From the NCBI GenBank assembly GCA_009838195.1, contig VXSC01000011.1, positions 124,001 to 188,000 on the forward strand: a stretch of DNA of 64,000 bases, written 5' to 3'. Below are positions 5,111 to 47,725 of the stretch, piece by piece (the first letter of the stretch is position 1; every line of letters begins with the position of its first letter). This DNA comes from Rhodothermaceae bacterium. GTDB taxonomy: Bacteria; Bacteroidota; Rhodothermia; Rhodothermales; Bin80. The notes under the pieces are model-generated. The model was not told the origin of the DNA, searched no databases, and saw only the letters and a program-made list of their open reading frames with translations. The position numbers and the translations under genes are program-made.

Positions 5111-5115
5111 CCCGC

Positions 5116-21887: not shown

Positions 21888-21934
21888 ATTTCAAGTATAT
21901 TTCCTGCGGATTGCAAACCAAAAATGATTTCTTA

Positions 21935-24979: not shown

Positions 24980-25081
24980 ACCTTGACACGGAATCGATTG
25001 CTGTAATGAATGAACTTGTCCTGTTTGTCGTCTTGAGAACCAACCGGATTGACATGGACCGCTGGATTCAATAACTGCGGA

Positions 25082-26083: not shown

Positions 26084-26086
26084 CCG

Positions 26087-26596
26087 TTGACGACGCGTAT
26101 TCTGGACAAAGCTCTTGCAGGACTATTGGTCACCTTGATGTCGATTATGGTCGTCACCGTGTCCTGGCAGGTCATTACGCGTTTTTTGCTCAACAACCCC
26201 AGTTCCTATACAGAAGAACTCGCCACTTACCTGCTCATCTGGATTAGCTTGCTCGGTGCTGCGTATGCCCTGCGTGTGCGCGCACATTTGGGTATTGACG
26301 TGCTTGTACGAAGACTGAAAGCTTCCCGGCAACAATCGGTTCATGTCTTTGCCCACCTTGTCATTATCCTCTTTTCCATGGTCGCACTGGTTTTCGGGGG
26401 AAGCTGGCTCGTATATGTGACTTTGGACCTGAATCAGCTTTCTGCAGCCTTCCAAGTCCCGATTGGATACGTGTACCTGGTACTTCCGCTCAGTGGACTT
26501 TTGATGACCTACTACAGTGTCATTGCTCTTCGAGAAAATCCTGGTCAACAGGAGGACTCCACCCTCACGGCTGACCGCATTCCAAATACCTCCTGA
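26087..26596 (+). CDS. TRAP transporter small membrane subunit (DctQ)
   Basis: 169 residues from TTG 26087, three bases after the P-gene stop. Four membrane helices; the conserved YTEELATYLLIWISLLGAAY and RAHLGIDVLVRRL are typical of DctQ. It is the compact type, unlike the larger Q at 3151. It joins the P and M subunits in the inner membrane. Confidence 0.87.
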   Translation: MTTRILDKALAGLLVTLMSIMVVTVSWQVITRFLLNNPSSYTEELATYLLIWISLLGAAYALRVRAHLGIDVLVRRLKASRQQSVHVFAHLVIILFSMVALVFGGSWLVYVTLDLNQLSAAFQVPIGYVYLVLPLSGLLMTYYSVIALRENPGQQEDSTLTADRIPNTS

Positions 26597-26610
26597 ACTG
26601 GATCTGATAG

Positions 26611-28068: not shown

Positions 28069-28818
28069 ATGACCCAAAAATTCACACCCGTAGGGAAACC
28101 ACAGTTACTCAGTCATTCGGTGGTTGAAGCCATCGAGAACTCCATCCGCAAAAACGATCTGCGGCCTGGAATGCGACTTGCATCCGAATTAGACCTGTGT
28201 TCTCAATTTGGAGTAAGCCGAACCGTGCTACGGGAGGCACTGCGCATGCTTTCTGGACGCGGCCTGATTCGTATCGAAAAAGGGCGCGGTATCTTCGTCT
28301 CCGAGCTCTCTGCTGAGACGGTGAGTACTCCACTGCAAATGTATCTCCAGCAGCACAGTGGAGACCTGAAGTATATTGATCTCATTAAGGCCCGGCAACT
28401 GATTGAACCGCCAATCGCTGCCGAAGCGGCACTTTATCATACCCCCGATGATGCGAGGCAACTCAAGGAGGACTTTGACGCAATGAGTTCATGGACCGGA
28501 GGAAATGAAGAACTCGCCAATTTGGATCTTGCATTCCACCAACATATCGCAATCGCATCCGGCAATAGTGTCGTACCACTTTTGATCGCACCCATCCACG
28601 CACTCATGCCACAAGTCAAATCATCGGTCCATAAAGCGGTGGAAGATGCAAAATACTCGGCTATTGAATGGCATCGGCGTATCTTAGATGCCATTCTGGA
28701 GCGAGACCCGGAAGCTGCACGTGTTAACATGGAATATCACCTAGTCGAATCAGGAAAACATATCTCCCGGATGTTAGCCGCCCAGACCTCATCCGAAATC
28801 CTGGAGAATGCTGCCTGA
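28069..28818 (+). CDS. GntR-family regulator, FadR subfamily (FCD domain)
   Basis: 249 residues. The winged helix spans about 14-75, with LASELDLCSQFGVSRTVLRE for the recognition region and LIRIEKGRGIFVSE for the wing. An all-helical FCD domain follows (about 95-235), with metal/ligand residues in LDLAFHQHIAIASGN and HRRILDAILERDPEAA. In alginate loci such regulators respond to an intermediate and control lyase and transport genes. The 16-bp motif at three promoters of this locus is a candidate operator. No convincing copy precedes this gene itself. Confidence 0.88.
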   Translation: MTQKFTPVGKPQLLSHSVVEAIENSIRKNDLRPGMRLASELDLCSQFGVSRTVLREALRMLSGRGLIRIEKGRGIFVSELSAETVSTPLQMYLQQHSGDLKYIDLIKARQLIEPPIAAEAALYHTPDDARQLKEDFDAMSSWTGGNEELANLDLAFHQHIAIASGNSVVPLLIAPIHALMPQVKSSVHKAVEDAKYSAIEWHRRILDAILERDPEAARVNMEYHLVESGKHISRMLAAQTSSEILENAA

Positions 28819-28887: not shown

Positions 28888-28909
28888 GCCCGTATCAGGG
28901 GGCCTTTTT
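28888..28909 (+). terminator. Weak terminator after the regulator gene
   Basis: GCCC (28888-28891) can pair with GGGC (28900-28903) and is followed by five T (28905-28909). The stem is short, and it overlaps the end of the convergent PL6 fusion gene. Confidence 0.25.
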
Positions 28910-31615: not shown

Positions 31616-33360
31616 TGCTTTACCAAGGTTTGCTTCATAGGATTTCCGTCTACCTCAATGACAACAAAATAAACCCCGGGTGCAAGTCCGGACCCGTCAA
31701 ACAGGGCAGAATGGTCTCCCAGACTCCGGGGACCATCCATCAGTGTAACAATCTCACGCCCTAACAAATCATAGATACTCAGCTGTACGTGGCTAGGTTG
31801 CTCGAGTGTAAAATCGACTGAAACCATAGACCGAAACGGATTCGGGTATCCCTGAATCATTGCATGCCGTGCTTCTGGCACTGGAAGTTCGGTGTTCAAG
31901 ACGGTACCGAGATACGACGGGCCCACGTCCTTTGAGGTAAGGGGCCTGTAGAGGATTGGAGCCAAGCTAACTTCGTCTGCTCCAATATCAGGTTTCCCGT
32001 CTCGCTGTTGCCCATCAATATCATCGGACACAAAATCCACGGAAGTCGCTGTCCCTACCGCGACACTTGTATTGGAAAGAACCCATAGATCTTGTTCAGC
32101 CTGCAGTTCAGGGTCTGCAACGAGGATGCCGTCAACCTCCTCAATGCCAAGATCGGCTCCGTAAAATACATTGGACATGTAGGAGACATTGGTCGGTGTG
32201 TCCTCATATTCTATGATCGGTCCATTCGGGGTCACGACCAGATTATTTACAATCTGGAGGCCATCCGGGGAAAGGGACTGCTCTGAACTCCTGCCTGCTC
32301 CCAGGACGAACGTCTCTTCCACATTAACAAAGGTATTGAAGGCTACCACTGCATCCTTGACCTGGAAATATCGGTTCAACGGAGAATTCGGGACACCGTT
32401 GACGATAGACACGGCGGCACGATAACCCGTGCCTTCCAAATCCTGAAAATAGTTGTTGTACACCCTGTGCCGCTCTCCAATGATTCGAACTCCACCCGAC
32501 CTCGACTTTCCTTCCCCTAAGAAGTAGTTGCCGTAGACACTGGCTTCATTCCCGTGCCGCAGGGTAAGTGTACCTGAGGATCTGCGAAACGTATTGTGGC
32601 GAAAAATATTGTTACCACTCTTGTTCGAGATAATCTCGATCTCTCCGTCACATTCCTCAAATAGGTTGTGCTCCACGGTCACATTCGCGTCCTGCATGGA
32701 TCGGCTACTGGTACCAATTCGAAGAGATTCCCCACCATTCTTGGGCAGCGCCGGGCGGTGTCCGAAGTAGTTCTGATCAATCCGGTGCCACACCGGATCA
32801 TCATTGGGCGGATCGCGCAACCAGACGACAACCGTCGCACCATCATGGGTTTTGCCAGCAAAATGACAATGGTCAACACGATTATGGGAGCCGTAGATCG
32901 AAACCCACTTGTACTCCGTCAGATAGCTTGGGGGATTGTAGTTGGTAATAGTACAATTCGTAAGCCGACTGTGGCTACTCAGGCGCGAAGACGAACGTCT
33001 AAATTCAATAATATGCCCACTGCGCAATGATCCTTGATCAAACCACAAGCCATCGACCTTGAGGTAGGATCCGCCAATCTCCAGGCGGGAAGAGCCAGTC
33101 AGGATTACCTGCCCGGGGGTTTCGGCCCGGAGTGTGATGGTGTCTCTCTCCGCACCTTCATTATGAAATTCAATGACGACATCGGTCCAGGTACCATTTG
33201 CCATGATGACGGTGTCTCCCGGCCCCGAAGACGCAATCGCGTCAGAAAGTTCCTGTGGGGTACTAGCCAAACGCTCCATCTGCGCTTGAGCCACAGATGG
33301 AGCGAGAAGCAAGTACAACACACACTTAACGATGTATTTCCGATATAGAATCTGGAACAC
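31612..33360 (-). CDS. PL6 alginate lyase with T9SS sorting domain
   Basis: 582 residues from GTG 33360, 4 bp after the preceding stop. This start gives a proper signal peptide (VKCVLYLLLAPSVAQA), while ATG 33405 would overlap the upstream gene. The PL6 beta-helix has Lys247 (EIISNKSGNN) and Arg268 (LTLRHGN), close to the Lys250/Arg271 numbering of chondroitinase B. The C-terminus is a T9SS type-A domain (GYPNPF at about 504-509, IYDLLGREIVTL, ending QTLVKH), so it is expected at the cell surface. It depolymerises alginate or a related uronate polymer. The downstream gene is a paralogue. Confidence 0.9.
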   Translation of the reverse strand: MFQILYRKYIVKCVLYLLLAPSVAQAQMERLASTPQELSDAIASSGPGDTVIMANGTWTDVVIEFHNEGAERDTITLRAETPGQVILTGSSRLEIGGSYLKVDGLWFDQGSLRSGHIIEFRRSSSRLSSHSRLTNCTITNYNPPSYLTEYKWVSIYGSHNRVDHCHFAGKTHDGATVVVWLRDPPNDDPVWHRIDQNYFGHRPALPKNGGESLRIGTSSRSMQDANVTVEHNLFEECDGEIEIISNKSGNNIFRHNTFRRSSGTLTLRHGNEASVYGNYFLGEGKSRSGGVRIIGERHRVYNNYFQDLEGTGYRAAVSIVNGVPNSPLNRYFQVKDAVVAFNTFVNVEETFVLGAGRSSEQSLSPDGLQIVNNLVVTPNGPIIEYEDTPTNVSYMSNVFYGADLGIEEVDGILVADPELQAEQDLWVLSNTSVAVGTATSVDFVSDDIDGQQRDGKPDIGADEVSLAPILYRPLTSKDVGPSYLGTVLNTELPVPEARHAMIQGYPNPFRSMVSVDFTLEQPSHVQLSIYDLLGREIVTLMDGPRSLGDHSALFDGSGLAPGVYFVVIEVDGNPMKQTLVKH

Positions 33361-33364
33361 TAGA

Positions 33365-35722
33365 TCACTTGACCACCACCAGTTTACGCCATGTGCTCTC
33401 ACCATCTACAGTAAGTCTGTAGAAATAGGTGCCCGCTCCCTGTTGTTGCATCGAAAGGGAAACGGAGTAGGAACCTGCAGAATCATATCCGTCCTTGAGG
33501 CGGGCAACGCTTCTGCCTAACAGATCAAATACCTCCAGCGTAACATGGCCATCACGACCTAGGTGGTACGGGATCGTGGTTTCAATATTGAACGGATTGG
33601 GATAATTCTGATCCAGTACGATATCGGTTTCGCTTGGGATCGGAGTGTCTTCTTCTACGGCCACGCCTGACGTTATCCACCGCATGTCCCCTATTCCCAT
33701 TCCATCAGTCCCCATTGTAAGAAGTGGAGAATCCGCAGGGAGTGTGAAATCCAGCATATCTGGATTAGCAAATTGAGGATCAATTTCAGAAATCGCCTCT
33801 TGCGTAGAACTGCCACCCAACTGGATCTTCGAAACCATGAAGAGGTTGCTGTGCGATATGCTTGATGTGCCCGTGAGGTTGACACTCCATCTCTCTTCAT
33901 CCACTAAGCTGTTTGCAATAATGCTGTTGGTGATCCGGGCCGTTTGAACACCTCTTGGGTAAATTGCACGCCCGTTGCTGTGCCCGCAATTGTGACAGGT
34001 AAGATGATCGATAATAACTTCAGGCTCAGGCGTAGCTGGATCGGTATCGCCGCTGTAGATATAGATCGCCGATGCCCTGGTATTGGCCATCGTTGTATTG
34101 GATACCTCGAAATATTTCACATTAAAGAGCCCTGAGTCCGTTTCTTCATCCTTGGTCCGAATCCCTTCTTTACCGCTGCCACTCAAAATCGAATTGCGGA
34201 AGATCATCGAATCAGCAAATGTCCCAGGATACTGCCGTAAAAAATTCCCGTCGCTGCCAGCGACCACATCGTGGAGGAAACTGTTGGTGACTTTGACTAC
34301 GGTTGAAGAATCGACCGCACCACGAACGCGGAGCAAGTACTTGGCATTGAAATCCGTCCCGGCCTGTCCATCAATTTCAATACCGTCAAGGTGAAGGGAA
34401 TTGAGGACTTCAAAGACAACCCGCGTGCTCTCATCCACTTCATTGTTCTTGATGACCGGCCTCTCATCCAATCCAGCAGCTGCCCGGATTGTAAGTGGAA
34501 TTGTAATATCTATACGGTCGTCGTTGAGATACTCACCTCCTGAATCGACCAGTTCGATAATATCACCTGCTTCTGCTGCATCAACAGCATCTGCGAGCGT
34601 GTTTTGTCCCGCCGAAATCTTGTGAACGGCAGCCGTCTTCGGGGCCCATCTGGAATCACCTGGAGATGAACCGTCCGTGCCCTTTCCGATCAACGGGCTC
34701 CCTTCCATGAGCGTAAAGTCACCATTTGCTGCATCGGCAAACATTGGATCCACAGCATACAGGTTCATAATGGTCGGTGCCCCTCCTCCTGTCCAGGCTC
34801 CATCATCACTGACATTGAGCGTGTCACTATATGCCAAAGTAGCCCCGGTCTCCAACCAGGGTGCACCCAGCGTCTTTCCAGTCCCATTTACAATGTCATA
34901 GTTATCCACCATAATGGTGTTGGTCACCGTTGAGTTCTCCGCATATTTGAGATTTAGAAAATAATGACCCACATTGTGCATGGTCACTCGATCAATGACA
35001 ACTTCCGGGCCGGGTGTATTTGGATCTTGATCTCCACCGTACACGCTGATTGCATCGTTCTTAATATTCCAGAAAGTAGAATTGGAGACCTCGAAATACT
35101 TCACATTAAAAAACCCGAAGCCTGGACGATCACTGTCTTCATCACGCGCCCGGATTCCTTCCTTGCCGGTATTAAAGACCAGCGTGTTTCGGATTATGAT
35201 TGAATCCGCCATGGTCTGACCATAGGCTCGGAATGCATTCCCGTCACTTCCATGAACAATATCATGAAAGTAGCAGTCGAAAATTTTCAGCACGTAGTTC
35301 TTCTTTACATTCTCTCCCGCATCGCCGGAGCCGCTACCGGTACGGATCGCGTACTTGGTCGTCAGTCCCTGGTGTGCCAGCCCGTCAAATTCAAGACCGA
35401 TCAGGGTCATATCGCCATAGAGACGAATGATATCCTTCGTGCTGTCTTCTCCGTTATTTATCAGCACCGGGCGGTTCGTAAGCCCCGGGGCCGCCATGAT
35501 CGTGAGCGAGAGCGAACTGTCTGGTTTAAGTTCATCGTCGTTTAGATACTGGCCTCCGTCCGTTGTTAAGACGAGCGTGTCTCCCGGCGCAGCGGCCGCC
35601 ACCGCATCAAGTAATGTGTTCTGGCCAGCTTCTACTTCAATTTTCGTCTGGGAAAAAGCAGGCTTGGCTACCAAAAATACCAAGGCAATCATGAGCCCAA
35701 AACAGGTAGTAATTGTACGCAT
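33365..35722 (-). CDS. Surface protein with two tandem beta-helix units and T9SS domain
   Basis: 785 residues from ATG 35722, chosen for the signal peptide (MRTITTCFGLMIALVFLVA). Two homologous units follow (about 25-370 and 372-690). Each starts with AGQNTL.DAV and contains GSDGN, GKEGIR.(R/K)DE and FNVKYFEVSN. The fold is a parallel beta-helix of the DUF4957/DUF5123 kind seen in polysaccharide loci; I cannot assign a lyase family or catalytic residues. The C-terminus is a T9SS type-A domain (YPNPF, FDLLGRSVARL, WRKLVVVK). It could be a lyase or a surface glycan binder. An operator-like motif lies 44 bp upstream. Confidence 0.8.
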   Translation of the reverse strand: MRTITTCFGLMIALVFLVAKPAFSQTKIEVEAGQNTLLDAVAAAAPGDTLVLTTDGGQYLNDDELKPDSSLSLTIMAAPGLTNRPVLINNGEDSTKDIIRLYGDMTLIGLEFDGLAHQGLTTKYAIRTGSGSGDAGENVKKNYVLKIFDCYFHDIVHGSDGNAFRAYGQTMADSIIIRNTLVFNTGKEGIRARDEDSDRPGFGFFNVKYFEVSNSTFWNIKNDAISVYGGDQDPNTPGPEVVIDRVTMHNVGHYFLNLKYAENSTVTNTIMVDNYDIVNGTGKTLGAPWLETGATLAYSDTLNVSDDGAWTGGGAPTIMNLYAVDPMFADAANGDFTLMEGSPLIGKGTDGSSPGDSRWAPKTAAVHKISAGQNTLADAVDAAEAGDIIELVDSGGEYLNDDRIDITIPLTIRAAAGLDERPVIKNNEVDESTRVVFEVLNSLHLDGIEIDGQAGTDFNAKYLLRVRGAVDSSTVVKVTNSFLHDVVAGSDGNFLRQYPGTFADSMIFRNSILSGSGKEGIRTKDEETDSGLFNVKYFEVSNTTMANTRASAIYIYSGDTDPATPEPEVIIDHLTCHNCGHSNGRAIYPRGVQTARITNSIIANSLVDEERWSVNLTGTSSISHSNLFMVSKIQLGGSSTQEAISEIDPQFANPDMLDFTLPADSPLLTMGTDGMGIGDMRWITSGVAVEEDTPIPSETDIVLDQNYPNPFNIETTIPYHLGRDGHVTLEVFDLLGRSVARLKDGYDSAGSYSVSLSMQQQGAGTYFYRLTVDGESTWRKLVVVK

Positions 35723-35995
35723 GTGTAAATCCGTTCTAATTAAAGGTGTGTGCAATATGCATTACACGTATGATGTAATACAAGTTAATAAATAGTTTCA
35801 GCAATTGCAAACTTTTGTGTCATTCTCCCTCACTAAAGAGACGACCACGCATTCGCCCTTCAATAACAAAGGGGACTCCGGGCCCAAAGTGGATCATTCT
35901 CTGACCGATGGATTCAATCTGTAACTCATAGCGTCCTTAAGCGCACTGCACCCCGTATGCTCCTGATCTATAATCTGGACTCTACCAAACCCTGG
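35723..35995. other. Internal promoter region within the leftward arm
   Basis: 273 bp between the heparinase-fold gene and the tandem beta-helix gene, much longer than other gaps in this arm. It carries the operator-like motif at 35766-35781, so a second promoter is likely here. Confidence 0.5.
35766..35781 (-). promoter_or_regulatory. Candidate GntR-family operator, internal promoter
   Basis: Read leftward: GTATTACATCATACGT. It matches 13 of 16 positions with the copy at 46200-46185. It lies in a wider dyad ATTAC-N9-GTAAT (35761-35779), 44 bp upstream of ATG 35722. Confidence 0.5.
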
Positions 35996-38608
35996 TTACC
36001 TGATGCGCACAACCCGACCAAACTGAAGTACACCGCTCGCATCCGTCAGACGGACAAGATATACGGCAGCGGGAGCGGGCGAACCAAACATCGTATACCC
36101 ATCCCACACGATGCGGACCGTTTTCTCGCCAACTAAGCTTTCTCCTTCAAGCTCTCGTATCCGCTGACCCAAGAGGTTGTACACCTCCACACTAAAAGGA
36201 CCGTGGTGTCGTACTGGTACCTCCAGAGTTATATCGTGACTGAATGGATTTGGATAGGCTTGCAATAGATATGGAAAGATGGGATCGGGGATCGGTTCAA
36301 CGCTCGTTCTTTTTAAACCAATCAATAGACGATCTCCCTGAAGTGTGAATGGGCTTGTCTGCTCATTCACACGTACCTCCTGGACCGATGCCGCATCCAT
36401 CATGACGACTTCAATCTGCGCTGATGGATGCACCGAAGGCATAGCAATATCAAGGATCCCGCTTACGCTGGCATCCAGTGCAAGCGTTACCTTTGAATCC
36501 GAATATATCTCTACCTCAGTACCCTTGAATGAATTCGCTTCTCGAACAGCTACATTCTGCCACCCTGAATCAGTGCTTCGCAGCCATGCGAACGTCGCGT
36601 CTGTCGTGAACATATCCAGTTCGCGAGGCTCTGATCGTTGCTGCAGAAAAACATAGTCCAACGTATCCGATCGACTGAGCATAGCGGCTACATAGTCCTC
36701 TGTGCTTAAGTCTTCAACTTCTGGAACCGGGGCCTCTGGAGAGGCCGGCAGAAGTAGCTGAATGAATGCCGCTTCCTGGCCGACCTGCGCTGCTTCAATG
36801 TAGCGTTCACGCCGCTCATCTTTGAAAAGGCTAACGTACCCAATTTCCGCGCTTAGATCAGCCGATTCAGGTAGAATAAATGCATCCAGCCTCGCGGCAG
36901 CTCCATAGCGGTTTGCGAAAGGAGACCATGATATAAAGTTTCCCTCCTGATTGAACGCCCCACGCCCATGCAAATAAGTCCTGTAGGTATGTTCCTGCGA
37001 GCCGTAGAGCAGATCCGAGACAACAAAAAAGTCTTGATCAATAAAAGCAATCGCCCGGCGTAAACGCACATCATCTGGACGGAGATAGCCTGTTTCCTTT
37101 TCTGCAAACCCAAAGAATTTGGAATCGATCTCGTGGCGGGCTAGAGGAGTGACGTTATATGTATACGGTGTCCTAAGCAGGTTATCCGTCACAGGCTGAT
37201 ATCCATCAGCCGTCACAATATTATGCGCCTTAGCAGTGAGATACCAGGATCCACGCCGATCATCAGAGAATCCGGCAGGGCCATAGCCCGCATCCGGGGC
37301 CAAAATGGCATCGTTCCCTCCCAGGAAAAAAGATAATTGGTCTGGATGATTATGGTTGTCCGCCTCGGCAACACCGTGGAAAAGCAGGTATCGGTCATCC
37401 GATGCGGGTTCCCAGCTCCTGCGAAAAACGACCTGTCCCCCTTCGAGGAATTGATTTGGGGATACGGATGGAGCAGCGGCTTCAATAGAGTCGTCGAACA
37501 ATATATACTCGTCAATTTCCCACGTTACATCTACGGTGGCGCCCGTGTAATTATGCTCAATCAAGCGGGTGTTCGCAAAATTCCACTGACAGATCGCGGC
37601 AAAGTCTACACTGGGATTCAATTCCGTTGGTTTGCCTCTGTATGCAGCCGCCACCATATGCGTAGGGGCCGGTTTGAGATAAGAGTCTTCTATATTCGGG
37701 ATCTGTCCACGCCCCGTGCGCACTCTGACCGGCCACTCGAATGCCGGCTGATATGCATCAAATAGATCCACCCCTGACACGTTCAGATAGTGCCACAGAA
37801 AGGGGATAAAATTCACGGCATTGTACATCCAGTAGTGTCCGCCTTCGCGGTAGATTCCATCTGCGCTAAACTGATATCTTGTCACGGTATTTGCTGCCTC
37901 CAGAGCATGCGAGAGCCAGTCCGAGGCCTGATCATGGTCTGAAAGCACTAGTGCAGCCGTACCGATTGCCCAAGCCGGCTTGGATCGATGGTTGTGCGGG
38001 CGAGGGGCAAGCCGATCACCAACCATAATATTGTCGCGCAAGTACTGCGTCTCTTCTGCGATGCGACGGCGAATCTCGTCGTTCTGATCCGAAGTCAGTT
38101 GATCGAAAACCCAGTCGTAAGCAGCCGCATAATTCTGCAGCCAGGTTGCACGATAAATCTCATCATATGGCTTTTCTCCGGTCTGCGGTACGCCGTCATA
38201 GGCTACCAGCAACGCCTCAATCGCGGTTTGAAGCGCGGTGGAATCCTCTTCAATCAACCACCAAAAGGCCAAGGTCTTTGCAGCCAGGGGCCTGTCATTT
38301 TCATCCAGAGTAGATGGATCCCTTTCCCTGTACCTGCGAGCATCCGCCCCGAAACGCTGCCAAAGGGCATAGTAGCTTGAACTCTCGTCATTCTTGCGCG
38401 AACGAAGCTCCGGGATGAAGTCGGCAGTAAAGTACAGAGACGGGTGCTGCTCCACAGCGGGCAATACTGGCGTGGTATCTGTTTCAAAACCCGTATACGT
38501 GTCGTACTTGGGATGTTGAGCGGCGACTTGCGCCGCCGGGATCAATAGACCAAGCAACAGCAACCGATACCAGGCAGCAGCACCAAACCGGCCGGGAAGC
38601 GATATCAT
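35996..38608 (-). CDS. Heparinase II/III-fold polysaccharide lyase with T9SS domain
   Basis: 870 residues from ATG 38608 (a TTG two codons upstream is less likely). The signal peptide ends ...VAAQ. An alpha-toroid (about 60-370) and a heparinase II/III-like sandwich (390-690) are seen. Candidate active-site residues are Asn-His in PHNHRSKPAWAIG, Tyr in DGIYREGGHYWMYN and His in EADNHNHPDQLSFF. A T9SS type-A domain closes it (YPNPFSHDITLEVP, YNLLGQRIREL). It differs from the PL17 enzyme of this locus; PL15/PL17/PL39-like or another heparinase-fold family is possible. Expected at the surface as an alginate or uronan lyase. Confidence 0.8.
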   Translation of the reverse strand: MISLPGRFGAAAWYRLLLLGLLIPAAQVAAQHPKYDTYTGFETDTTPVLPAVEQHPSLYFTADFIPELRSRKNDESSSYYALWQRFGADARRYRERDPSTLDENDRPLAAKTLAFWWLIEEDSTALQTAIEALLVAYDGVPQTGEKPYDEIYRATWLQNYAAAYDWVFDQLTSDQNDEIRRRIAEETQYLRDNIMVGDRLAPRPHNHRSKPAWAIGTAALVLSDHDQASDWLSHALEAANTVTRYQFSADGIYREGGHYWMYNAVNFIPFLWHYLNVSGVDLFDAYQPAFEWPVRVRTGRGQIPNIEDSYLKPAPTHMVAAAYRGKPTELNPSVDFAAICQWNFANTRLIEHNYTGATVDVTWEIDEYILFDDSIEAAAPSVSPNQFLEGGQVVFRRSWEPASDDRYLLFHGVAEADNHNHPDQLSFFLGGNDAILAPDAGYGPAGFSDDRRGSWYLTAKAHNIVTADGYQPVTDNLLRTPYTYNVTPLARHEIDSKFFGFAEKETGYLRPDDVRLRRAIAFIDQDFFVVSDLLYGSQEHTYRTYLHGRGAFNQEGNFISWSPFANRYGAAARLDAFILPESADLSAEIGYVSLFKDERRERYIEAAQVGQEAAFIQLLLPASPEAPVPEVEDLSTEDYVAAMLSRSDTLDYVFLQQRSEPRELDMFTTDATFAWLRSTDSGWQNVAVREANSFKGTEVEIYSDSKVTLALDASVSGILDIAMPSVHPSAQIEVVMMDAASVQEVRVNEQTSPFTLQGDRLLIGLKRTSVEPIPDPIFPYLLQAYPNPFSHDITLEVPVRHHGPFSVEVYNLLGQRIRELEGESLVGEKTVRIVWDGYTMFGSPAPAAVYLVRLTDASGVLQFGRVVRIR

Positions 38609-38637
38609 GAACAATCCTCGTGTCTGTTGGCTGCACT

Positions 38638-38671: not shown

Positions 38672-40072
38672 CTATAAGGCATAGGTTACACCCACGAGCA
38701 CGCTGTGTTTACGTACCCGGTTGTAATCAACATTGGATTCCCATCTATCCTGATAGTGCAGGTTCTGGAATTCATACGCGAGGTCCAGTGTAAGAATCGA
38801 AATGCCCGTTCCGAGCCCAATACTGAATGCATCTCCGGTAGCAGTCTGCCCAACCAAGCCAAACCCTTCGATCCGGAACGGCTGGGGATCGCGCCGAAAC
38901 CCGGCACGCAGGAATGTAGCACCGTGCAGGTTCCATTCTGCACCCAGTCCGATGCCCTGAACCATCCCCCAATCCGGGCCGGAACCCATTGCACTGCCGA
39001 GAACTTTCAAATCCGAGAAGTTCTGCCAGAAGTAGTCTGCAGCCAATACAATCGAAGGGATGGGACGCAGAACAACGCCTGTCCCAATGCGGGCCGGGAT
39101 CTCAACCTGATGCTCTCCCACCTGCGTGTGATTGCGTGCTCCGCTTTCCTGCGTCTGTTCTCGCCCCATGTTGGTGAACTTTTGACGCAAGTTGCTCGCA
39201 AACTGGTACGTGACCCCTACGGTAATCATATCGTACTGCCACTGCATTCCAAACACTCCTCTCCAGCCACTATACTCAGAGGTTCCATCCCACGCGAGAG
39301 ATCCTGTAGCAGTCTCATAACTGTAGTCATGCGCATCTTCCCTCAACAGAAACAGCCCTACATTGCGGGTATTTTGACGGTCCGTTGAGCTCCCCCAGAT
39401 CCGGGAAACACGCAAACCAACATGAAAGCTCTCATGCAACTCGAACCCAACTGATGAGGAGACCGCCTGCAGGTGCCCAGTGCGTTCCCTTTCGAAAGCA
39501 GACCATTGGACAGGGATCTCCTCCCCCGGCTTAGGCCGCTCAACAGGATCTGGACGGAACTGACCGATGTAGGGGTCCAGTACGTTGTCATTTCGGTCAT
39601 AGTCGCTCAACCGCGCAATCTGATGAAATACAATCCCTAGCGTCAATGTTTGATCTCCCACTTCCAGTGGAACCGCCCCCGCCATGGTCGCCAGTCGAAA
39701 GGAACTCTGATTGTAGGTCCAGTCCGGTTCTGAAAGCGGTTCACTTCGATAGTCTTCTGGATCCGCAAAATACAATGACATCCCCGCATAGTACCGGTTC
39801 GGGTTCCAGTGCTGCGTTTCCGCCCAGTCCTGCCGAAACCAGGCACCACTTGTAGAAAATGCCGGGCGTGAAAGACTCGCGAGCCCCGCCGGATTCAGAA
39901 TCGCAGATTCTATGGATCCCGAAAGGGCAGTGACCGCACTGCCCATTCCCCGGGCACGGGCCGTCATCAACTCCTGGCGCTCCAACCCCTGAATGGAAAG
40001 TGGTTGCATCACCCCCTGCCCGTAGGACATTGGTGCCACAAGCAGCAGCAGTAGCGGAAGTCGTCGAAACAT
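38672..40072 (-). CDS. Outer-membrane barrel, FadL/OmpP1-like
   Basis: 466 residues with signal peptide MFRRLPLLLLLVAPMSYG. The N-terminal block MTARARGMGSAVTALSGS followed by ILNPAGLASL is the typical start of FadL/TodX-like barrels in Bacteroidota (also of PorV). Alternating beta-strands run to the C-terminus VLVGVTYAL. FadL proteins let small or hydrophobic molecules cross laterally; a role with oligosaccharides here is only suggested by linkage. It starts 10 bp after the stop of the PorV-like gene, within the TonB receptor operon. Confidence 0.8.
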   Translation of the reverse strand: MFRRLPLLLLLVAPMSYGQGVMQPLSIQGLERQELMTARARGMGSAVTALSGSIESAILNPAGLASLSRPAFSTSGAWFRQDWAETQHWNPNRYYAGMSLYFADPEDYRSEPLSEPDWTYNQSSFRLATMAGAVPLEVGDQTLTLGIVFHQIARLSDYDRNDNVLDPYIGQFRPDPVERPKPGEEIPVQWSAFERERTGHLQAVSSSVGFELHESFHVGLRVSRIWGSSTDRQNTRNVGLFLLREDAHDYSYETATGSLAWDGTSEYSGWRGVFGMQWQYDMITVGVTYQFASNLRQKFTNMGREQTQESGARNHTQVGEHQVEIPARIGTGVVLRPIPSIVLAADYFWQNFSDLKVLGSAMGSGPDWGMVQGIGLGAEWNLHGATFLRAGFRRDPQPFRIEGFGLVGQTATGDAFSIGLGTGISILTLDLAYEFQNLHYQDRWESNVDYNRVRKHSVLVGVTYAL

Positions 40073-40082
40073 CTATTGAGGG

Positions 40083-41081
40083 TTAGTCTATCGAAAGGGA
40101 GAATCCAAGCCGGTGCACGGCTCCGAAGGCATCACTCATGCTGCTGTAGCTGTAATCGAATCCAACTCCAAGAGAGCCCAGTGGCTGGCGGATGCCGAGT
40201 CCGAAACTGTAAGATGCAATATCGTAGTTGTGCTGATATCCACCCCGCACAAAGATCCGCTGCAAAAACGCGTATTCCAGTCCTGTCGCCCACTGCTGGT
40301 CATAATCATTGGGCTGAATGAGGTCAAAAGAGGCAGTCAGGCGACTGTCCTCCCGGAATGAAATGAGACCGGTGCTGCCAATTACATCTACTGCGCCACC
40401 AATCCGAAACCGCAACGGAACTGGATAGGAATCCTCACCAAAGGATACCGGTGCGCCAAAATTCATAACCGATGCTCCCAGTCGAAGAGACCGAAACCCC
40501 GTCGCATATGTCATTCCAAAGTCAAACAGGAAGGCATCTGCTTCGGAAAGCCAGAGGCTTTCGCGTGCCATCTTGACCGTCAAACCGGCAGAAAACCTGT
40601 CCGTGAATGCTCTGGCATAGGAGAGACCAAGCACCCAGCTTCGCAGCGAAAAGGTCGTGCCAGTCAGACCCGGGTTGTAGACCTGCGTCCCTCCTTGATC
40701 GACAAATCCGAGATGATCTACTCTCGTCTCCTGAAAATCCCCCATGTCTGCCATGTAGAAATGTGCCCCTGCATATCCCCAGGATCCAAGCGATATACCA
40801 TAGGCGGCTCCGTAGTGCGCCGCATCCAAAAACCAGTCAACCCGGTCAATCACCAGGCTGTGCCCCACAGTGCGTGTCAGCCCAGCCGGATTCCAATACA
40901 ATGCGCGCGCGCCCTCAGCCATCGCGATATAGGCCGTGCCAATCCCGACAGAACGGGCATCGGGAGCCACACTCAAAAATTGCATGGAGGATGTCCCCAC
41001 CTTCTGGGCCCAAACAGGCGACACACGGACTCCGCCGGCAAGCAAAAAGGCGATTAGAATTATGCTGGATACTTTTCTCAT
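40083..41081 (-). CDS. PorV/PorQ-family outer-membrane protein
   Basis: 332 residues from ATG 41081, which overlaps the upstream stop by 4 bp (ATGA) and starts a signal peptide (MRKVSSIILIAFLLAGG, ending VWAQ). The block FLSVAPDARSVGIGTAYIAM followed by LYWNPAGLTR is the PorV/PorQ hallmark. PorV is the T9SS shuttle that carries sorting-domain cargo to the attachment complex. A dedicated copy next to four T9SS-sorted proteins may serve them, or may be a structural part of an import complex. This is inference; the main T9SS genes are not in the window. Confidence 0.85.
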   Translation of the reverse strand: MRKVSSIILIAFLLAGGVRVSPVWAQKVGTSSMQFLSVAPDARSVGIGTAYIAMAEGARALYWNPAGLTRTVGHSLVIDRVDWFLDAAHYGAAYGISLGSWGYAGAHFYMADMGDFQETRVDHLGFVDQGGTQVYNPGLTGTTFSLRSWVLGLSYARAFTDRFSAGLTVKMARESLWLSEADAFLFDFGMTYATGFRSLRLGASVMNFGAPVSFGEDSYPVPLRFRIGGAVDVIGSTGLISFREDSRLTASFDLIQPNDYDQQWATGLEYAFLQRIFVRGGYQHNYDIASYSFGLGIRQPLGSLGVGFDYSYSSMSDAFGAVHRLGFSLSID

Positions 41082-43321
41082 TTGATCACCACAAATTTGC
41101 CGCGATATGTTTCCCCCTCCGGTGTGCGTACCACAAAGAAGTAGACCCCGGAAGCGATCTCCTGATCGTTGCGGGTTACCTGAAACCAAGGTGTGGAGTA
41201 CTGTGCCGCATCGTGCTCAATCGTGTCAATCAGTTGCCCACTGTAAGAATAAATCTCGATAGTGGCTTGACTTGGCAATCCATAGAAACCAATTTGCTGT
41301 GCTGAATTCTCGCCTCCTCCCGTTGCAAAACCACTATTGAGGTGGAAGGGATTGGGCACAGCATGTACTTCGCCCAGCGTTTCGGCCGCTCCAAGCCTAG
41401 AGACGACCTCCATAAGGTTGGTCTTGCCGCTTTCATTGCCCTGGGCATCTATGGAGGTAACGGCATACCACTGCGACTCGCCAACGGTCGTTTCTGCGTC
41501 AATGAATTCATACAAGTCTGCTTCCGTCAGATGACTCGAACTGCCGACCGGGATCTCTGCCAAGGTTTGCCAGGGACCGATCGCTGCCTGTGATTTTTGG
41601 ACCCGATAGGTCACGACTGGGCCGGTCAACCTTGGATGCGCAAAGGATTCCTGTGCACGACCCCAGCGGAGAACCGAGTGAGCCCGGTCGTTATTGGTAA
41701 CCATCACGATCGGGGCCGGTGGTGGCGCGGGCACTTGGTAGACCCCGTCTCGTGGATTATCCTCCGGCCAGAGCGGCAGCACTGGTGGCCTGCCTGTATA
41801 TGCATTGTAGGCCATATCCGCCACATCCTTCACGGTTCGAACGTCTGAGTTTACGTAGTCCGGGTAGCCATATTCCGCAATGTAATTCTCTACAAGTACC
41901 CGCCCAGATGACGGGTCCATGACCTGATCCGCAAAGTGAGGAACCTCATGCCACGGAAGCTGCTCGTCAATCACCTCTCCGAGTCCTCCCCCTTCATCCC
42001 ATTCCCCTGGTCCACTGGCGGCACCGTATCCAACTACTTCCGCCGACGAAAATTCAATCTTAGCTCCTACAGGAAGAATGTATGGCCCAAACACAATGTG
42101 GTGGCCGACTGCCTTGTAAGATTGCCTGAAGTTGAAGGCGCCCCGTCCAATCCACCTCAACGAATCCGGGTCTTCGGTATTTGGCGGGGGCGGGAAGACC
42201 GTTTCACGATAAGGCGTATAAGTACCACTCCAACGCGTGTACGGGACAAGCTTGGGGATCATCTTGTCCTCCCTGGAATTTCCGCTCTCAACCTTGTTCA
42301 TGAACGGTTGTTTGAGCGTGCTGTCACTGTCGATCATGCGCTCATTGGCAACCCTCGGGTCAAGCGCAAACGTGTTTCCCTTTGTCGCCAAGTGGCTGCG
42401 ATCATAGTACAACATCTGGATCCCAGGTGCCTGCGGAGACATCAGTCCTCCCCCCTGCTCACCACTGCTGGCAAAACTTGCAAAGTACTTTGGGTCCGGT
42501 TTACCGGATTCTGCAAAGTCGGCGTTCACGCCATTGCCAATGTTCACCACGTACCTCAACCAGCGATGTCGATCAAAATAGCCGCGTAAATCATTCTTGT
42601 ACATGAAATCATACTCCCACGTACCGTACCACCGTTGAAATCCCAGCATCGAGGGAGCAACTCCGTAATGAAACCCGATGAGCACCTCATGGAGCGTCTC
42701 ATCAGTATCAGGGCTGCCATCCCCATCCTTATCCCCAGTGTTTTCGAACGTGTACTCGAATATGATCAGGTCATCGTAGTCTGGGTAGCTCCAGGCTCGC
42801 GAGGTTCGTGTGACCGTGATTCCGGTATTGGTCCCCCATTGAGCGACAATAATTTCCTCTGCTTCATTGGGATCGTAAGCCGGATTCAAGCTTCCGTCTT
42901 CCAACAAAGGATAATTCTCCATACGCTCAATGGAGATCGGGAACGAATACACCCCTGCCACGGTGATTGGCACATGCTGCCCGGACGATCCACCAAACGA
43001 AAACATGCGTTCGTCAAGGTTGAATATGTTCGTTCCGCTGTACGAAGCTGCAATTGAAATCCCGCCTCCGATAATATTGTGCTGGCCACTGTACTGAAGT
43101 CCATCAATGGTTGTGGCAGAATTCCCAGGCCATTCCATGAGTGGATCCAGCGTAATATCATGGTCTCTATAAAACCACTTGCGACCGATCTCGCCAGTAT
43201 TATAGACGGTCTCGTGCAGCATACCTCGACGATGCACACGCTTATCCCGCAAGACTTGCGCCTCTGCAACCGACAGTGTCGCTGCCGTTGCCACGAGAAT
43301 AAATATCAGAATGCGGTCCAT
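41078..43321 (-). CDS. Large T9SS-sorted surface protein paired with the TonB receptor
   Basis: 747 residues. Signal peptide MDRILIFILVATAATLS, then a long beta-rich region with no recognised enzyme motif (WPGNSATTIDGLQYSG, EYTFENTGDKDGDGSPDTDE, an Asp-rich possible Ca2+ loop). A fibronectin-like segment follows (about 545-645), and a type-A sorting domain (VPNPFHLNSGF near 663, EIYSYSGQLIDTI, YRGKFVVIK). Its place directly after a SusC-like receptor is where susD usually sits, but the sequence does not look like SusD: no lipobox and no TPR-like helices. It may be a surface glycan-binding partner. The function is unknown. Confidence 0.75.
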   Translation of the reverse strand: MDRILIFILVATAATLSVAEAQVLRDKRVHRRGMLHETVYNTGEIGRKWFYRDHDITLDPLMEWPGNSATTIDGLQYSGQHNIIGGGISIAASYSGTNIFNLDERMFSFGGSSGQHVPITVAGVYSFPISIERMENYPLLEDGSLNPAYDPNEAEEIIVAQWGTNTGITVTRTSRAWSYPDYDDLIIFEYTFENTGDKDGDGSPDTDETLHEVLIGFHYGVAPSMLGFQRWYGTWEYDFMYKNDLRGYFDRHRWLRYVVNIGNGVNADFAESGKPDPKYFASFASSGEQGGGLMSPQAPGIQMLYYDRSHLATKGNTFALDPRVANERMIDSDSTLKQPFMNKVESGNSREDKMIPKLVPYTRWSGTYTPYRETVFPPPPNTEDPDSLRWIGRGAFNFRQSYKAVGHHIVFGPYILPVGAKIEFSSAEVVGYGAASGPGEWDEGGGLGEVIDEQLPWHEVPHFADQVMDPSSGRVLVENYIAEYGYPDYVNSDVRTVKDVADMAYNAYTGRPPVLPLWPEDNPRDGVYQVPAPPPAPIVMVTNNDRAHSVLRWGRAQESFAHPRLTGPVVTYRVQKSQAAIGPWQTLAEIPVGSSSHLTEADLYEFIDAETTVGESQWYAVTSIDAQGNESGKTNLMEVVSRLGAAETLGEVHAVPNPFHLNSGFATGGGENSAQQIGFYGLPSQATIEIYSYSGQLIDTIEHDAAQYSTPWFQVTRNDQEIASGVYFFVVRTPEGETYRGKFVVIK

Positions 43322-43342: not shown

Positions 43343-46168
43343 TTACATGTTGAAGACCACACCCAATCGAATTGAGCGAGGTGCGTTGTCGTAGATACGG
43401 AACGTCTGCGTGGCAGCAAGATCGGGGTTGTTGCTATCCGGCAGGGCGAACTCAATATCCTCTCCATTCTCGTAGCGACGTAACGTTTCGGCATCCAAGA
43501 AAACTCTGTTGTAGTCGAATACACGCGCATTGAAGAGGTTGAAGAACTCAACGAAAACATCTAGCTCGGTAAAGCCTGCACCGACGGTTTTCGTCACCTT
43601 GAGGTCTGTATTATGCTCCCAGGGTGTACGCTCTGTGTTCAGCTTTGCAAAATTGTCCCCCAGTAATTCACTGGGCGTATAGGGCCTGCCACTCCTGGAA
43701 TCATGCAAAAAGTTGATTCTGAGACGACCCAGTGGATAGCCACCGGCAATTCTGGGGCCCCAGTTCTGTGGCAGATTGACTCCGGCAATCAATACAAGCG
43801 CATGCCGCCGGTCAAAATTGAGCAGGATGTCTCGCGGGCTCGGGGCTTGGGTTTGCTCGTTGGTCTCATCAATGATGGGGCTGCGTCCGGTGGGCGTTGA
43901 ATTTTTCCCAGTAGCCACCGAGAAATGATACCTGGCTGATCCGGAAATAAACCCTCTACGCTTATTCAGACGCAGACTGAAGCCGCGAATATTTGCGTAA
44001 TCCCGATTCCCGAGCGACTCATACAGATTATCGTTTGAATCAATGTAGACCACGCGCTGGATCAAGTTTTTCACGTCTTTATAGTATCCGCTCACATCAA
44101 GCGTGAACCCGCTTGCGATGCCCAGCACCAAGCCTACATCGTAGCTTTTGGTTTCTTCCGGCTTCAAGAGGGGATTCCCAAGGCGCCTTGGCTCCACAGT
44201 CCCCAAGTTTTCGTTGAAGAGCGTCGTTCTGCTGCCAATCAGGCTTTCCAGACCGGGGCGCTTGAGATAGCTGCCGTAGTTGAGGTGGAATACCGCGCGT
44301 TCATTAATTGGGAATGAAAACCCAAGTCTGGGTTGTAACCGTGCTACGATGGGAGTATCCTCGGTTGCAGCATCTCTCTCATTGATCAGTGCTGGATTTG
44401 ACGGATCCCTGAATGGGGAAAACGTATCGGTGTAGTACTGCACATTCTGATCATAGAAATCCAGACGCAATCCTACATTTGTGATCATCCCCTTGAATTC
44501 CATCTTGTCCTGAATGTACACGGCCCCTTCGTAGGGTCTCGCTTGATAGAATTCCTGTACGGCACTGGACCGGGAGGAATGATTCAGTCGATTCTCGACA
44601 TCAATATCGTACAGGTTGCCCTGAATCCCCACTTTGATTTCGTGATTATTGGAGACCTGGCTGGTCAGAAACCCGACCGCTGAATAGGTCCAGGATTCCT
44701 CATCGAAAAAGTCATCATCCATCACCCCGGTTCGGAACCCATCCTCCCAGTAAAGTCGTTCCCAGACGGAACCGTCCGAGATGTCATCCCGAAAACGCTC
44801 TGGATCAATAACATCCACCCCTTCGGTGAGCTTTGTTCGCATACCATTCACAGTAAGCTCATAGTAGGTGCGATCACTCAGGACATGGGAGTAGACAAGT
44901 CCTACCCCCGCACTCCGGTCCAGGATTTTGTTCGCGCCAATCACACGATCATAGACCCATCTGTAGAAACCGCCCGAAGAATAGCTGAATTCCTGCTGGT
45001 AGGTGTTACCGTACATTGCATTCAGCTTCAATTTCATGCCTGGCCCGGGCTTCATCACCAGGTTCCCCATCACCTGCATCTGCCTGTCAGCTTCCGGCGT
45101 TGGCAGCATCGGCCATACCCTGTTGATCTGGGTTGCTACGAACAGGCGGCTGGTCTCGGAAATTGGCCCACCAAGAGTAAAATCAATGAGTGCATCCCAG
45201 CGGTTATTGTACTCATATCCAACATCGCGGTGGGTCCTCCTCCACAGATCGTATGCAAGCTGCGCTCCTTCCTCAGGATCAACCCTCGACCCAAATCCAC
45301 GACCTATCGCGCCCTGCCACCTCGGTTTATCATCATTTTCAGGATCAGGAGCTTCCCACCACTCCAGGTTATTCATAAGGCGGATATAGGGATTGTTTGC
45401 CGGGTCAAACACACTTCCCCCGAAGTGCTTGTAGCTAGGTGCACGTGTACGAACCTCAGCACGACTACTCCAAGAGTCTCCACCTTCCTTGGTTGAGATG
45501 TTGATGACCCCACTCATCGCATTGCCATACTCGGCCGCAAACCCACTCGTAATGACCTCTACCTCTTCCACCGCACTCAGCATGGGTGTAAATGAACGCG
45601 ATGAATTCAGGGGATTAACAATCCCCATCCCAGCCAGCACGTAGAGTTCTTCGTTAGATCGTCCCCCTCTGAAATGCCCGTCATTCACCTCTGCCTGAAG
45701 TCCCAGCACATCAGACAGGTCAGTAATGCCGGCAATCTGCTCCACCTCTTCTGGACGGATGATTTCCAAGGTGGCTGTCTGATCAACTTCAACATCCGGA
45801 CGCTCAGCAATGACGAGTAGTTCCTCTCCTTCGGCTGTTGCTTCCTCCAGGATAAAATCAATTGTTGTCGTCTTATTGATGTTGACGATGACCTCGGACT
45901 GCGTCACGGCTCGGAATCCGATAAAAGATGCACGCAGGTTGTAGGTGCCCGGCTCTACATTCAGAATAAAAAACCGGCCATCTATGTCCGTGGATGATCC
46001 TCTGGTTGTACCGGTAATCACCACATTCACGCCAACCATCCCTTCTCCGGTCACATCCGTAACGACACCCGTAATTTTGCCGGATTGGGCATTCGCGGGA
46101 ACGGATGCCATTAGATGCACGAGAACGAGAACGGCCGCGCATGCGAGACCTTGAAGGTACTGAGTCAT
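43343..46168 (-). CDS. SusC-like TonB-dependent receptor
   Basis: 941 residues from ATG 46168, chosen for the signal peptide (MTQYLQGLACAAVLVLVHLM, cleaved after ANAQ); an ATG at 46198 lies inside the operator-like motif. A carboxypeptidase-regulatory-like domain (about 30-110: GKITGVVTDVTGEGMVGVNV), a plug (about 120-230: FRGGRSNEELYVLAGM, VEVITSGFAAEYGNAMSGVI) and a 22-strand barrel follow. The C-terminus is SIRLGVVFNM. It imports ligands with TonB energy, here probably oligoalginate. It leads the operon TonB receptor, T9SS protein, PorV-like, FadL-like and lyases. No susD gene follows. Confidence 0.9.
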   Translation of the reverse strand: MTQYLQGLACAAVLVLVHLMASVPANAQSGKITGVVTDVTGEGMVGVNVVITGTTRGSSTDIDGRFFILNVEPGTYNLRASFIGFRAVTQSEVIVNINKTTTIDFILEEATAEGEELLVIAERPDVEVDQTATLEIIRPEEVEQIAGITDLSDVLGLQAEVNDGHFRGGRSNEELYVLAGMGIVNPLNSSRSFTPMLSAVEEVEVITSGFAAEYGNAMSGVINISTKEGGDSWSSRAEVRTRAPSYKHFGGSVFDPANNPYIRLMNNLEWWEAPDPENDDKPRWQGAIGRGFGSRVDPEEGAQLAYDLWRRTHRDVGYEYNNRWDALIDFTLGGPISETSRLFVATQINRVWPMLPTPEADRQMQVMGNLVMKPGPGMKLKLNAMYGNTYQQEFSYSSGGFYRWVYDRVIGANKILDRSAGVGLVYSHVLSDRTYYELTVNGMRTKLTEGVDVIDPERFRDDISDGSVWERLYWEDGFRTGVMDDDFFDEESWTYSAVGFLTSQVSNNHEIKVGIQGNLYDIDVENRLNHSSRSSAVQEFYQARPYEGAVYIQDKMEFKGMITNVGLRLDFYDQNVQYYTDTFSPFRDPSNPALINERDAATEDTPIVARLQPRLGFSFPINERAVFHLNYGSYLKRPGLESLIGSRTTLFNENLGTVEPRRLGNPLLKPEETKSYDVGLVLGIASGFTLDVSGYYKDVKNLIQRVVYIDSNDNLYESLGNRDYANIRGFSLRLNKRRGFISGSARYHFSVATGKNSTPTGRSPIIDETNEQTQAPSPRDILLNFDRRHALVLIAGVNLPQNWGPRIAGGYPLGRLRINFLHDSRSGRPYTPSELLGDNFAKLNTERTPWEHNTDLKVTKTVGAGFTELDVFVEFFNLFNARVFDYNRVFLDAETLRRYENGEDIEFALPDSNNPDLAATQTFRIYDNAPRSIRLGVVFNM

Positions 46169-46184
46169 AGCCAGTGCATAGAAT

Positions 46185-46200
46185 ATGTAAGATGTCATAC
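46185..46200 (-). promoter_or_regulatory. Candidate GntR-family operator at the TonB receptor operon
   Basis: Read leftward: GTATGACATCTTACAT, 16 bp upstream of ATG 46168. It has an imperfect dyad GTATGA-CA-TCTTAC. It is the best-matching member of the three-site set (13 of 16 and 12 of 16 against the other two). Confidence 0.5.
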
Positions 46201-46417: not shown

Positions 46418-47725
46418 ATGCGTCCAAACATGAATACCTGTCGAAGTGCTGCCTCCGGTACCCTATCACTCACGAGGCAACGTCCCATCGTGTTGTCGTG
46501 CAGATGGTTGATAGATTCCATCCACTCATCGATAATAGGATGTCTTGTGATTTTGATTATTTCTGGCTGCAATCAAACAGACACATCAATACGAGATAAC
46601 GACGATTACCAAACGGAGACATCAACAAATGACAATTCCGCTTCGGTGACTCCCTATACAGCAGATACGCTGGCGAAAGATAGAACTGATAATCAAACAG
46701 AAACATCAACGAATGACGACGATTCCGCTTCAGTGCCCCCCTATTCAGCCACGATCACACTGAACGAAGTCGGTGAGATTGAGCTCTTTATGACAGATGA
46801 GGCTATCCTGAGTCTACCGCATACCGTACATATTGATAGTAGGGGGAATATTTTTTGGGCTGAATCCAGACCCCCCATTTACGTATTCAATAGTGACGGC
46901 GTATTTATTGGATCAATTGGTGCATACGGGGCTGGTCCAGGCGAGTTGAGAGACATAGAGACGTTCAACATCGATAGTGGGGGGAATTTCCATGTTTTTG
47001 ACGCCAGTATCAGCCGAATTAGCCGATTCTCATCAGACTTTTCTTTCGTCCGCAGTTATAGTATTGCTGCTGATCGTTCTAGTAGAGCAATCCTGAATAA
47101 CCAAGACCACTTTGTGATGCTTCGCGAGGCGTGGTATAATGGTTTAAAGCCAGCGCTGGTGATCTATGATCAAAATGGCAAAATGATCTCCAGTTCAGGC
47201 GAAATGCCCATTTCGGCGAAGGTCCAAAACAGCCTTTCTCCAGGCGGTGGTATTGCTGTTGACACAGAAGATAATATCTACTACTCGTACATATCCGATC
47301 ACAGGATATGGAAAACAGACTCAAAGGGAGATCTAATTGATGTTTTTGATTCCGAACCCTCATATTACATTGCTCCAGATGAAGGATTATTGAATCAATT
47401 AGAGAAACGTGATTCTCCCCCTAACCCTGAAGTCCTCACCGAGCGCCTGCGTCATTTTTATTCTATCTCACGAATTGCAGGAATACACGCCGTCAAGGAA
47501 AGGGATCTAATATTCCAAGAAATCATGACCCCTGATTATGACAACGGGGAGAGAGAGCTTCGAGTAGATCTTGAAGTCTGGCATAGCTCGGGGTTTAAAA
47601 TTGGAACTGTCATTTCAAGCCCCGGCAACGTCTCTTTCATAGACGAATCCCACATCTACTACGTGAATCTTCCGAGTGGAGATGAAAATCCTTCTCTGGT
47701 AGTCTACACCTACGATATACTGTGA
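46418..47725 (+). CDS. 6-bladed beta-propeller lipoprotein with repeated linker
   Basis: 435 residues. A long N-region leads to a lipobox (CLVILIISGC, Cys51), so the true start may be later. An Asp/Thr/Asn-rich linker with repeats follows: NQTDTS, YQTETSTNDNSASVTPY and NQTETSTNDDDSASVPPY. From about residue 110 blades of the NHL type run to the end (VHIDSRGNIFWAESRPPIYVF, GAGPGELRDIETFNID). It is of the same class as the protein at 1945-2994. It starts 250 bp from the divergent TonB receptor, so it may be co-regulated with the locus. Confidence 0.78.
   Translation: MRPNMNTCRSAASGTLSLTRQRPIVLSCRWLIDSIHSSIIGCLVILIISGCNQTDTSIRDNDDYQTETSTNDNSASVTPYTADTLAKDRTDNQTETSTNDDDSASVPPYSATITLNEVGEIELFMTDEAILSLPHTVHIDSRGNIFWAESRPPIYVFNSDGVFIGSIGAYGAGPGELRDIETFNIDSGGNFHVFDASISRISRFSSDFSFVRSYSIAADRSSRAILNNQDHFVMLREAWYNGLKPALVIYDQNGKMISSSGEMPISAKVQNSLSPGGGIAVDTEDNIYYSYISDHRIWKTDSKGDLIDVFDSEPSYYIAPDEGLLNQLEKRDSPPNPEVLTERLRHFYSISRIAGIHAVKERDLIFQEIMTPDYDNGERELRVDLEVWHSSGFKIGTVISSPGNVSFIDESHIYYVNLPSGDENPSLVVYTYDIL
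46571..46755 (+). repeat. In-frame linker repeat, three units
   Basis: Related units begin at about 46571 (AATCAAACAGACACATCAA), 46607 (ACCAAACGGAGACATCAACA) and 46691 (AATCAAACAGAAACATCAAC). The last two are longest and encode (N/Y)QTETSTNDxxSASVxPY. Confidence 0.65.

Follow-up and report, generated by a model that had tools for sequence, protein, structure and literature searches.

A TonB-dependent receptor, a T9SS-tailed partner and a PorV-family barrel form a recurrent, co-inherited unit at a predicted alginate locus of Rhodothermaceae

In this work, we analyzed a stretch of 64,000 nucleotides (hereafter, the window) on contig C11 of the genome of a Rhodothermaceae bacterium (3.0 Mb, 99% complete), in which a TonB-dependent receptor gene is followed by genes encoding a T9SS-tailed protein, referred to below as the partner, and an outer-membrane barrel of the PorV/PorQ family. 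These three genes (the trio) constitute one evolving, co-inherited unit, in which the PorV/PorQ family and the type A class of tails (the latter at a marginal score), both already known, occur in a new combination. The interpretation that we favor, with a probability of roughly 0.55, is that they are one copy of a recurrent uptake module, in which a capture subunit exported by the T9SS would be held at the receptor by a barrel of its own.

The trio lies on the minus strand together with a fourth gene. The receptor (43343-46198; 951 aa) was recognized by PF00593 and PF13620/PF13715 (Pfam) and by its predicted structure, that of a TonB receptor; the partner (41078-43321; 747 aa), by the T9SS sorting model TIGR04183 and its AF2 model; the PorV/PorQ-family outer-membrane barrel (40083-41081; 332 aa), by NF033709 and a match to the PorV of a SprA complex; and gene 4, a barrel of the FadL superfamily (38672-40072; 466 aa), by PF03349, the BamG model and its conserved position. 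Re-reading of the open reading frames reproduced exactly the common direction of the four genes and the gaps of 21, -4 and 10 bp given in a preliminary description of this DNA. The receptor gene itself, which that description placed at 43343-46168, was also recovered, but its end had to be moved: position 46168 is an in-frame ATG at codon 11, and the open reading frame runs to another ATG 30 bases upstream, at 46198. The ATG of the PorV/PorQ-family barrel (41081) overlaps the stop codon of the partner (ATGA), and this start was preferred to the one at 41189, an artefact of taking the longest open reading frame. The four-gene order, kept across several phyla, and the trio order, observed in 28/28 trios examined, are far beyond chance. 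Upstream of the receptor, a divergent gene encodes a DUF5128 six-bladed propeller protein (46418-47725), weaker homologues of which are found near the orthologous loci of two relatives (L070, L072).

The preliminary description took the receptor for a SusC-like protein lacking its SusD. The first part of this proposal is ruled out by the scores and by the phylogeny. The receptor, composed of a CarboxypepD_reg N-domain, a plug and a barrel, reached 72.4 bits on the SusC/RagA model TIGR04056, against a cut-off of 368.25, and the receptors of other trios scored between 44 and 83 bits, whereas SusC proteins encoded beside SusD in the same group reached 642 and 745 bits. Likewise, the TIGR04057 signature gave no match in the window receptor and matched two true SusC proteins at 62-68 bits. 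The genome under study encodes three SusC proteins above the TIGR04056 cut-off, all of them next to a SusD-like gene and outside the trios, and in the receptor tree the trio receptors form one clade (support 95/95) with SusC apart. The predicted structure (pLDDT 76) is that of a plugged TonB receptor nearest to siderophore and B12 receptors (Z 30-36), the best match being PirA (Z 35.7). Failure on the SusC model and the separate clade thus point to a distinct receptor lineage with its own partner, rather than to a SusC that has lost its SusD. The second part of the proposal was borne out, as genome scans with PF07980 and PF14322 (SusD/RagB) found nothing at the receptor locus, and no SusD was found in the alginate locus of the window.

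Six copies of the trio are present in this genome, twelve in another member of the Rhodothermales (G018) and ten in Stygiobacter (G019), and in all 28 the three genes share the same strand and the same order. The third gene of a trio accounts for most PorV_fam genes above the cut-off in these genomes (6/10, 12/16 and 10/14, respectively). Of 148 genomes sampled across the phylum, 81 contained trio-type barrels when the limit was set at E <= 1e-40; this limit is close to specific without being entirely so, as it gave 7 matches for the 6 trios of the genome under study. Within each genome, the paralogue distances of receptor, partner and barrel were correlated (Mantel r 0.68-0.93, p <= 0.014; n=6, 12 and 10), which shows co-inheritance; operon linkage, however, is not proof of protein contact. 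Gene 4 is missing from the other five trios of the genome and was thus excluded as a component of the general unit, its position being conserved beside the alginate trio. The four-gene arrangement is therefore the alginate version of a unit that in general consists of the first three genes. As to its identity, gene 4 scored below the curated cut-offs of both Toluene_X (PF03349, 27.2 vs 29.7) and BamG (NF053685, 66.8 vs 250 bits), the BamG score being the higher; its sequence places it in the FadL superfamily, as a confirmed member of neither family.

The barrel and the tail of the partner each belong to a group of their own. The window barrel scored 180.1 bits on the PorV_fam model NF033709 (cut-off 90) and matched the PorV of the SprA complex 6h3i (E 2.9e-5), in agreement with the separate PorV-family barrel that the preliminary description had assigned to the unit. 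It remained below the cut-offs for canonical PorV (NF033710, 54.9 vs 250 bits), PorQ (NF033711, 64.5 vs 220 bits) and PorP/SprF (24 vs 90.55). The same genome encodes elsewhere a canonical PorV adjoining PorU (G000:C32, 299.9 bits, cut-off 250), a PorQ (222.4 bits) and a PorV2-like barrel. A trio-barrel HMM built from other genomes gave 314-385 bits for trio barrels and 102-162 bits for other PorV-family barrels. In the barrel tree all trio barrels fall on one side of a split (88/93), which they share with three non-trio, unnamed barrels, and a strict trio clade was consequently rejected. The partner scored 24.8 bits on the type A sorting model TIGR04183, marginally above the cut-off of 23, and some other trio partners fall below it; neither the type B tail model TIGR04131 (12.8 vs 35 bits) nor the PorZ model (17.7 bits, cut-off 260) was matched. 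In the tail tree, the 28 trio-partner tails group in a single clade (99/99), to the exclusion of enzyme and PorU tails. A trio-tail HMM built from the other two genomes gave 107-129 bits for the trio tails of the genome under study and 11-33 bits for its enzyme tails, and an enzyme-tail HMM gave 10-26 bits for trio tails. At four other loci (L130:4192-7702, L145, L155 and L160), a PorV-family barrel is encoded next to a protein of ~530-560 aa with a T9SS tail, and no TonB receptor accompanies them. NCBIfam did not support PorZ for these tail proteins or PorQ for their barrels; they represent tail/barrel pairs of another type, distinct from PorV-PorU and not confirmed as PorQ-PorZ, and for want of such support the proposal that PorQ is closest to the trio barrels was abandoned.

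Special T9SS tails can be received, and possibly retained, by cognate barrels, as in PorZ-PorQ and in type B cargo with PorP/SprF, and a protective and anchoring role of the barrel towards the tail has been suggested (PMC10202324). By this parallel, we propose that the trio barrel would take the partner's tail class and keep the partner in the outer membrane, beside the receptor; that the barrel anchors the partner in this way seems to us an even bet. The main rival is a barrel that serves as a dedicated shuttle from SprA to PorU only, after which the tail would be cut and the partner linked to lipopolysaccharide or released, so that the trio would be an expression unit without a stable complex. 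This explanation draws on the description of canonical PorV as the shuttle for type A cargo (PMC10202324), on a trio tail that is barely over the type A cut-off and on the presence of PorU in the genome; PorU may indeed cut the partner's tail and release the protein. However, the enzymes of the same locus bear ordinary type A tails and have no barrel gene of their own, a general PorV is already available in the genome, and the trio tails constitute a separate class that is co-inherited with the barrel. On balance, we consider a shuttle-only role unlikely.

The preliminary description had characterized the partner as a T9SS-sorted protein without lipobox or TPR helices, and all three features were confirmed. 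There is no lipobox at the N-terminus and no cysteine among the 747 residues, and the AF2 model (36-sequence alignment, pLDDT 80, pTM 0.80) consists of 35% strand and 11% helix. Structure prediction of the partner alone gave a signal peptide, a super-beta-sandwich at about residues 20-530, an FN3 domain at about 531-640, also supported by Foldseek matches to FN3 pairs, and the trio-type CTD at 645-747. No SusD chain appeared among the 50 matches listed in the fold search, which does not count as a test on its own, nor did Pfam detect PF07980 or PF14322 in the partner. When its profile was searched against PDB sequences, the sole match concerned the tail and was at chance level (PG93, E 0.21). 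The super-beta-sandwich of the model matched the N-terminal domain of enzymes of the GH15/GH94/GH116/GH149 type, with Z 14-19 over some 240-290 residues (3.2-4.4 A); the domain layout of GH149 was used for comparison (PMC6771811). As judged from this model, the partner does not have the fold of SusD, nor that of a complete enzyme, and sharing a super-beta-sandwich with these enzymes is not proof of sugar binding. Nor is the N-domain shared by all partners, as had been considered: it is common to one group, in which it aligns over 562 columns (E 5.5e-34), whereas the larger partners (1125-1277 aa) align to the window partner by their tail alone, without detectable similarity in their N-terminal parts, and those of the sulfatase-locus group by FN3 and tail alone. 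The fold matches to domains of glycoside hydrolases and phosphorylases, and the fact that many non-SusC TonB receptors act alone, give some ground to an alternative: the partner could be an enzyme, or a surface protein with a structural role, whose gene is co-expressed with that of an ordinary, self-sufficient TonB receptor. Nonetheless, the matched domain is the non-catalytic N-domain, the model lacks the catalytic (alpha/alpha)6 barrel, no catalytic Pfam domain was found in the partner, and the partner is closely co-inherited, one to one, with the receptor (r 0.83-0.93), all of which make this alternative quite improbable. Instead, a partner positioned as the capture subunit above the receptor, with which it would form a complex, is slightly favored.

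The polysaccharide-uptake context put forward in the preliminary description was corroborated by predicted alginate lyases on both sides of the unit. Downstream of gene 4, on the minus strand, are encoded a heparinase II/III-like polysaccharide lyase (35996-38614; PF07940, PF16332, TIGR04183 28.2), a DUF5123/right-handed beta-helix protein (33365-35755; PF17161, PF13229, PF18962) and two PL6-type (Chondroitinas_B) lyases (31612-33405, PF14592 1.6e-109, PF18962; and 28895-31615, PF14592 6.4e-109); all of these proteins but the last, three of the four, carry T9SS tails. They are followed on the plus strand by genes for a GntR/FCD regulator (28069-28818; PF00392, PF07729), a TRAP transporter (25049-27903), with DctM at 26611-27903 (PF06808 2.1e-120) and candidate DctP (25049-26083) and DctQ (26087-26596) genes named from position and homology only, a short-chain dehydrogenase (24221-24979; PF13561/PF00106), which, judging by its place in the locus, probably reduces the unsaturated uronate product, and a PL17-type oligoalginate lyase (21881-24133; PF05426 2.3e-14 and PF07940 6.2e-24). 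Since both PL6 and PL17 lyase genes are present, the locus was assigned to alginate on its gene content. A second gene set resembling a TRAP transporter lies at 3151-6231, close to the window's left end.

This arrangement is not confined to one genome. In a profile-guided scan of one genome per species, which returned 44 loci, the order receptor, partner, PorV-type barrel and FadL-type barrel was kept in MAGs of Rhodothermales, Ignavibacteria/Melioribacteraceae/Stygiobacter, Calditrichota, KSB1 and Neomarinimicrobiota, followed by DUF5123/PL6 genes and often also by PL17, GntR, dehydrogenase or TRAP genes; homologues of the TRAP transporter adjoin other alginate trios. Partners outside Rhodothermales are 38-51% identical over their full length. 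No SusD was recognized in any of the orthologous alginate loci examined in these MAGs, and among genomes with an alginate locus SusD_RagB was undetected in 16 of 30, and SusD-like_3 in 19 of 23. The SprA translocon was present in 23 of 23 genomes and scored 1676 bits in the genome under study. Although no susD gene was seen tied to the alginate receptor elsewhere, a paralogous trio is preceded directly by a SusC and SusD pair and followed by two sulfatases (L077:2441-14458), putatively one sulfated-glycan locus in which both uptake systems adjoin. Besides PL6 and PL17, genes found beside trios encode GH16 with CBM6/35, alpha-amylase with a CBM20 protein (GH13/CBM20), sulfatases, GHL10, CBM9 and a carbohydrate esterase, so that conservation is not restricted to loci unrelated to polysaccharides, and some trios have only neighbours without a clear glycan role (amidase, FG-GAP proteins). 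At L066:3478-16427, genes for a T9SS-tailed CBM20 starch-binding protein and a T9SS-tailed alpha-amylase come after the trio, in what from its sequence appears to be a starch locus that has neither SusC nor SusD. That trios should serve non-glycan nutrients (peptides, metals, vitamins), alginate being one of several uses, is very improbable: the likeness of the receptor model to siderophore/B12 receptors and the amidase or FG-GAP genes would fit it, but the alginate association is kept across phyla and polysaccharide-active genes occur in several other trio contexts.

Taken together, these results are compatible with the following model for an uptake module with a barrel-held partner. The partner would be exported to the cell surface by the T9SS through SprA, and would serve there as the subunit that captures substrate above the receptor, the role that SusD fills in SusCD, while the receptor would provide the energised import channel. 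Surface lyases would cut alginate, the N-domain of the partner would capture the oligomers over the receptor, TonB-driven import through the trio, together with the FadL-like barrel, would bring them in, PL17 would finish their degradation and the TRAP transporter would take the product inside. That alginate oligomers are the cargo is, from the genes around the unit, likely.

Comparison with known systems suggests that the trio functions like SusCD and perhaps resembles BtuB-BtuG in structure, being a member of neither, as it lacks the features of SusC and SusD. With SusCD it shares a TonB receptor beside a gene for a surface partner, amid polysaccharide-degrading genes, and multiple paralogous copies per genome with different enzymes at each. 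However, its receptor falls short of the SusC model and lacks the signature, its partner is a T9SS-tailed beta protein instead of a lipidated TPR-type SusD, and a PorV-family barrel is always added. With the B12 uptake system BtuB-BtuG of Bacteroides it has in common a non-SusC TonB receptor under a non-SusD surface partner, and the structural matches of the receptor include 8blw and 8p97/8p98. BtuG, however, is a surface lipoprotein and not T9SS cargo, and we know of no cognate PorV-like barrel for BtuB-BtuG. In Flavobacteriia, alginate loci comprise PL6/PL7/PL17 with SusCD, a dehydrogenase and a regulator; the window locus follows the same substrate logic (PL6, PL17, dehydrogenase, regulator), but with the trio and the FadL-like barrel at the outer membrane and TRAP at the inner membrane in place of SusCD. 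As in PorZ-PorQ and type B cargo with PorP/SprF, a T9SS tail class is paired with its own PorV-like barrel; in contrast to these, the trio tail is neither type B nor PorZ, the barrel is neither PorP/SprF nor PorQ, and the unit includes a TonB receptor.

We found no description of the trio in the open-licence full-text literature, subscription papers being outside this scope. In the xylan locus of Rhodothermus marinus, Rmar_1070-1072 are listed as a TonB receptor, a hypothetical protein with a Por-secretion tail and a hypothetical protein, beside the T9SS-tailed xylanase RmXyn10A, with a SusCD pair further down that locus (PMC6987092, Table 1). These genes, which the published table does not describe as a unit (PMC6987092), are probably an unrecognised trio, Rmar_1072 being the candidate barrel by its position there. 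Altogether, there is a fair chance that the trio merits a class of its own.

Alginate is a polysaccharide of brown algae, and the hosts of these loci are marine bacteria related to Bacteroidota, in whose superphylum SusC/SusD pairs are the usual predictor of polysaccharide uptake. By this rule, glycan uptake goes unnoticed in the roughly half of alginate-locus genomes in which no SusD can be detected. With many copies per genome and in several phyla, the trio may be a widespread alternative for catching and importing polysaccharides. The broadest form of this proposal, for which the chances appear balanced, is that the trio represents a third general TonB uptake architecture for large substrates, beside SusCD and solo receptors: a three-protein outer-membrane complex with a T9SS-delivered capture subunit kept on a PorV-family barrel, present in many copies per genome in Rhodothermia, Ignavibacteria, Calditrichota, KSB1 and Neomarinimicrobiota and outnumbering SusCD there. 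If this is true, the trio would join two fields, T9SS and TonB uptake, many unexplained PorV paralogues would gain a function, a new T9SS tail class with its own barrel would be defined, and the combination of tail, barrel and receptor would serve as a marker for glycan loci in poorly studied phyla.
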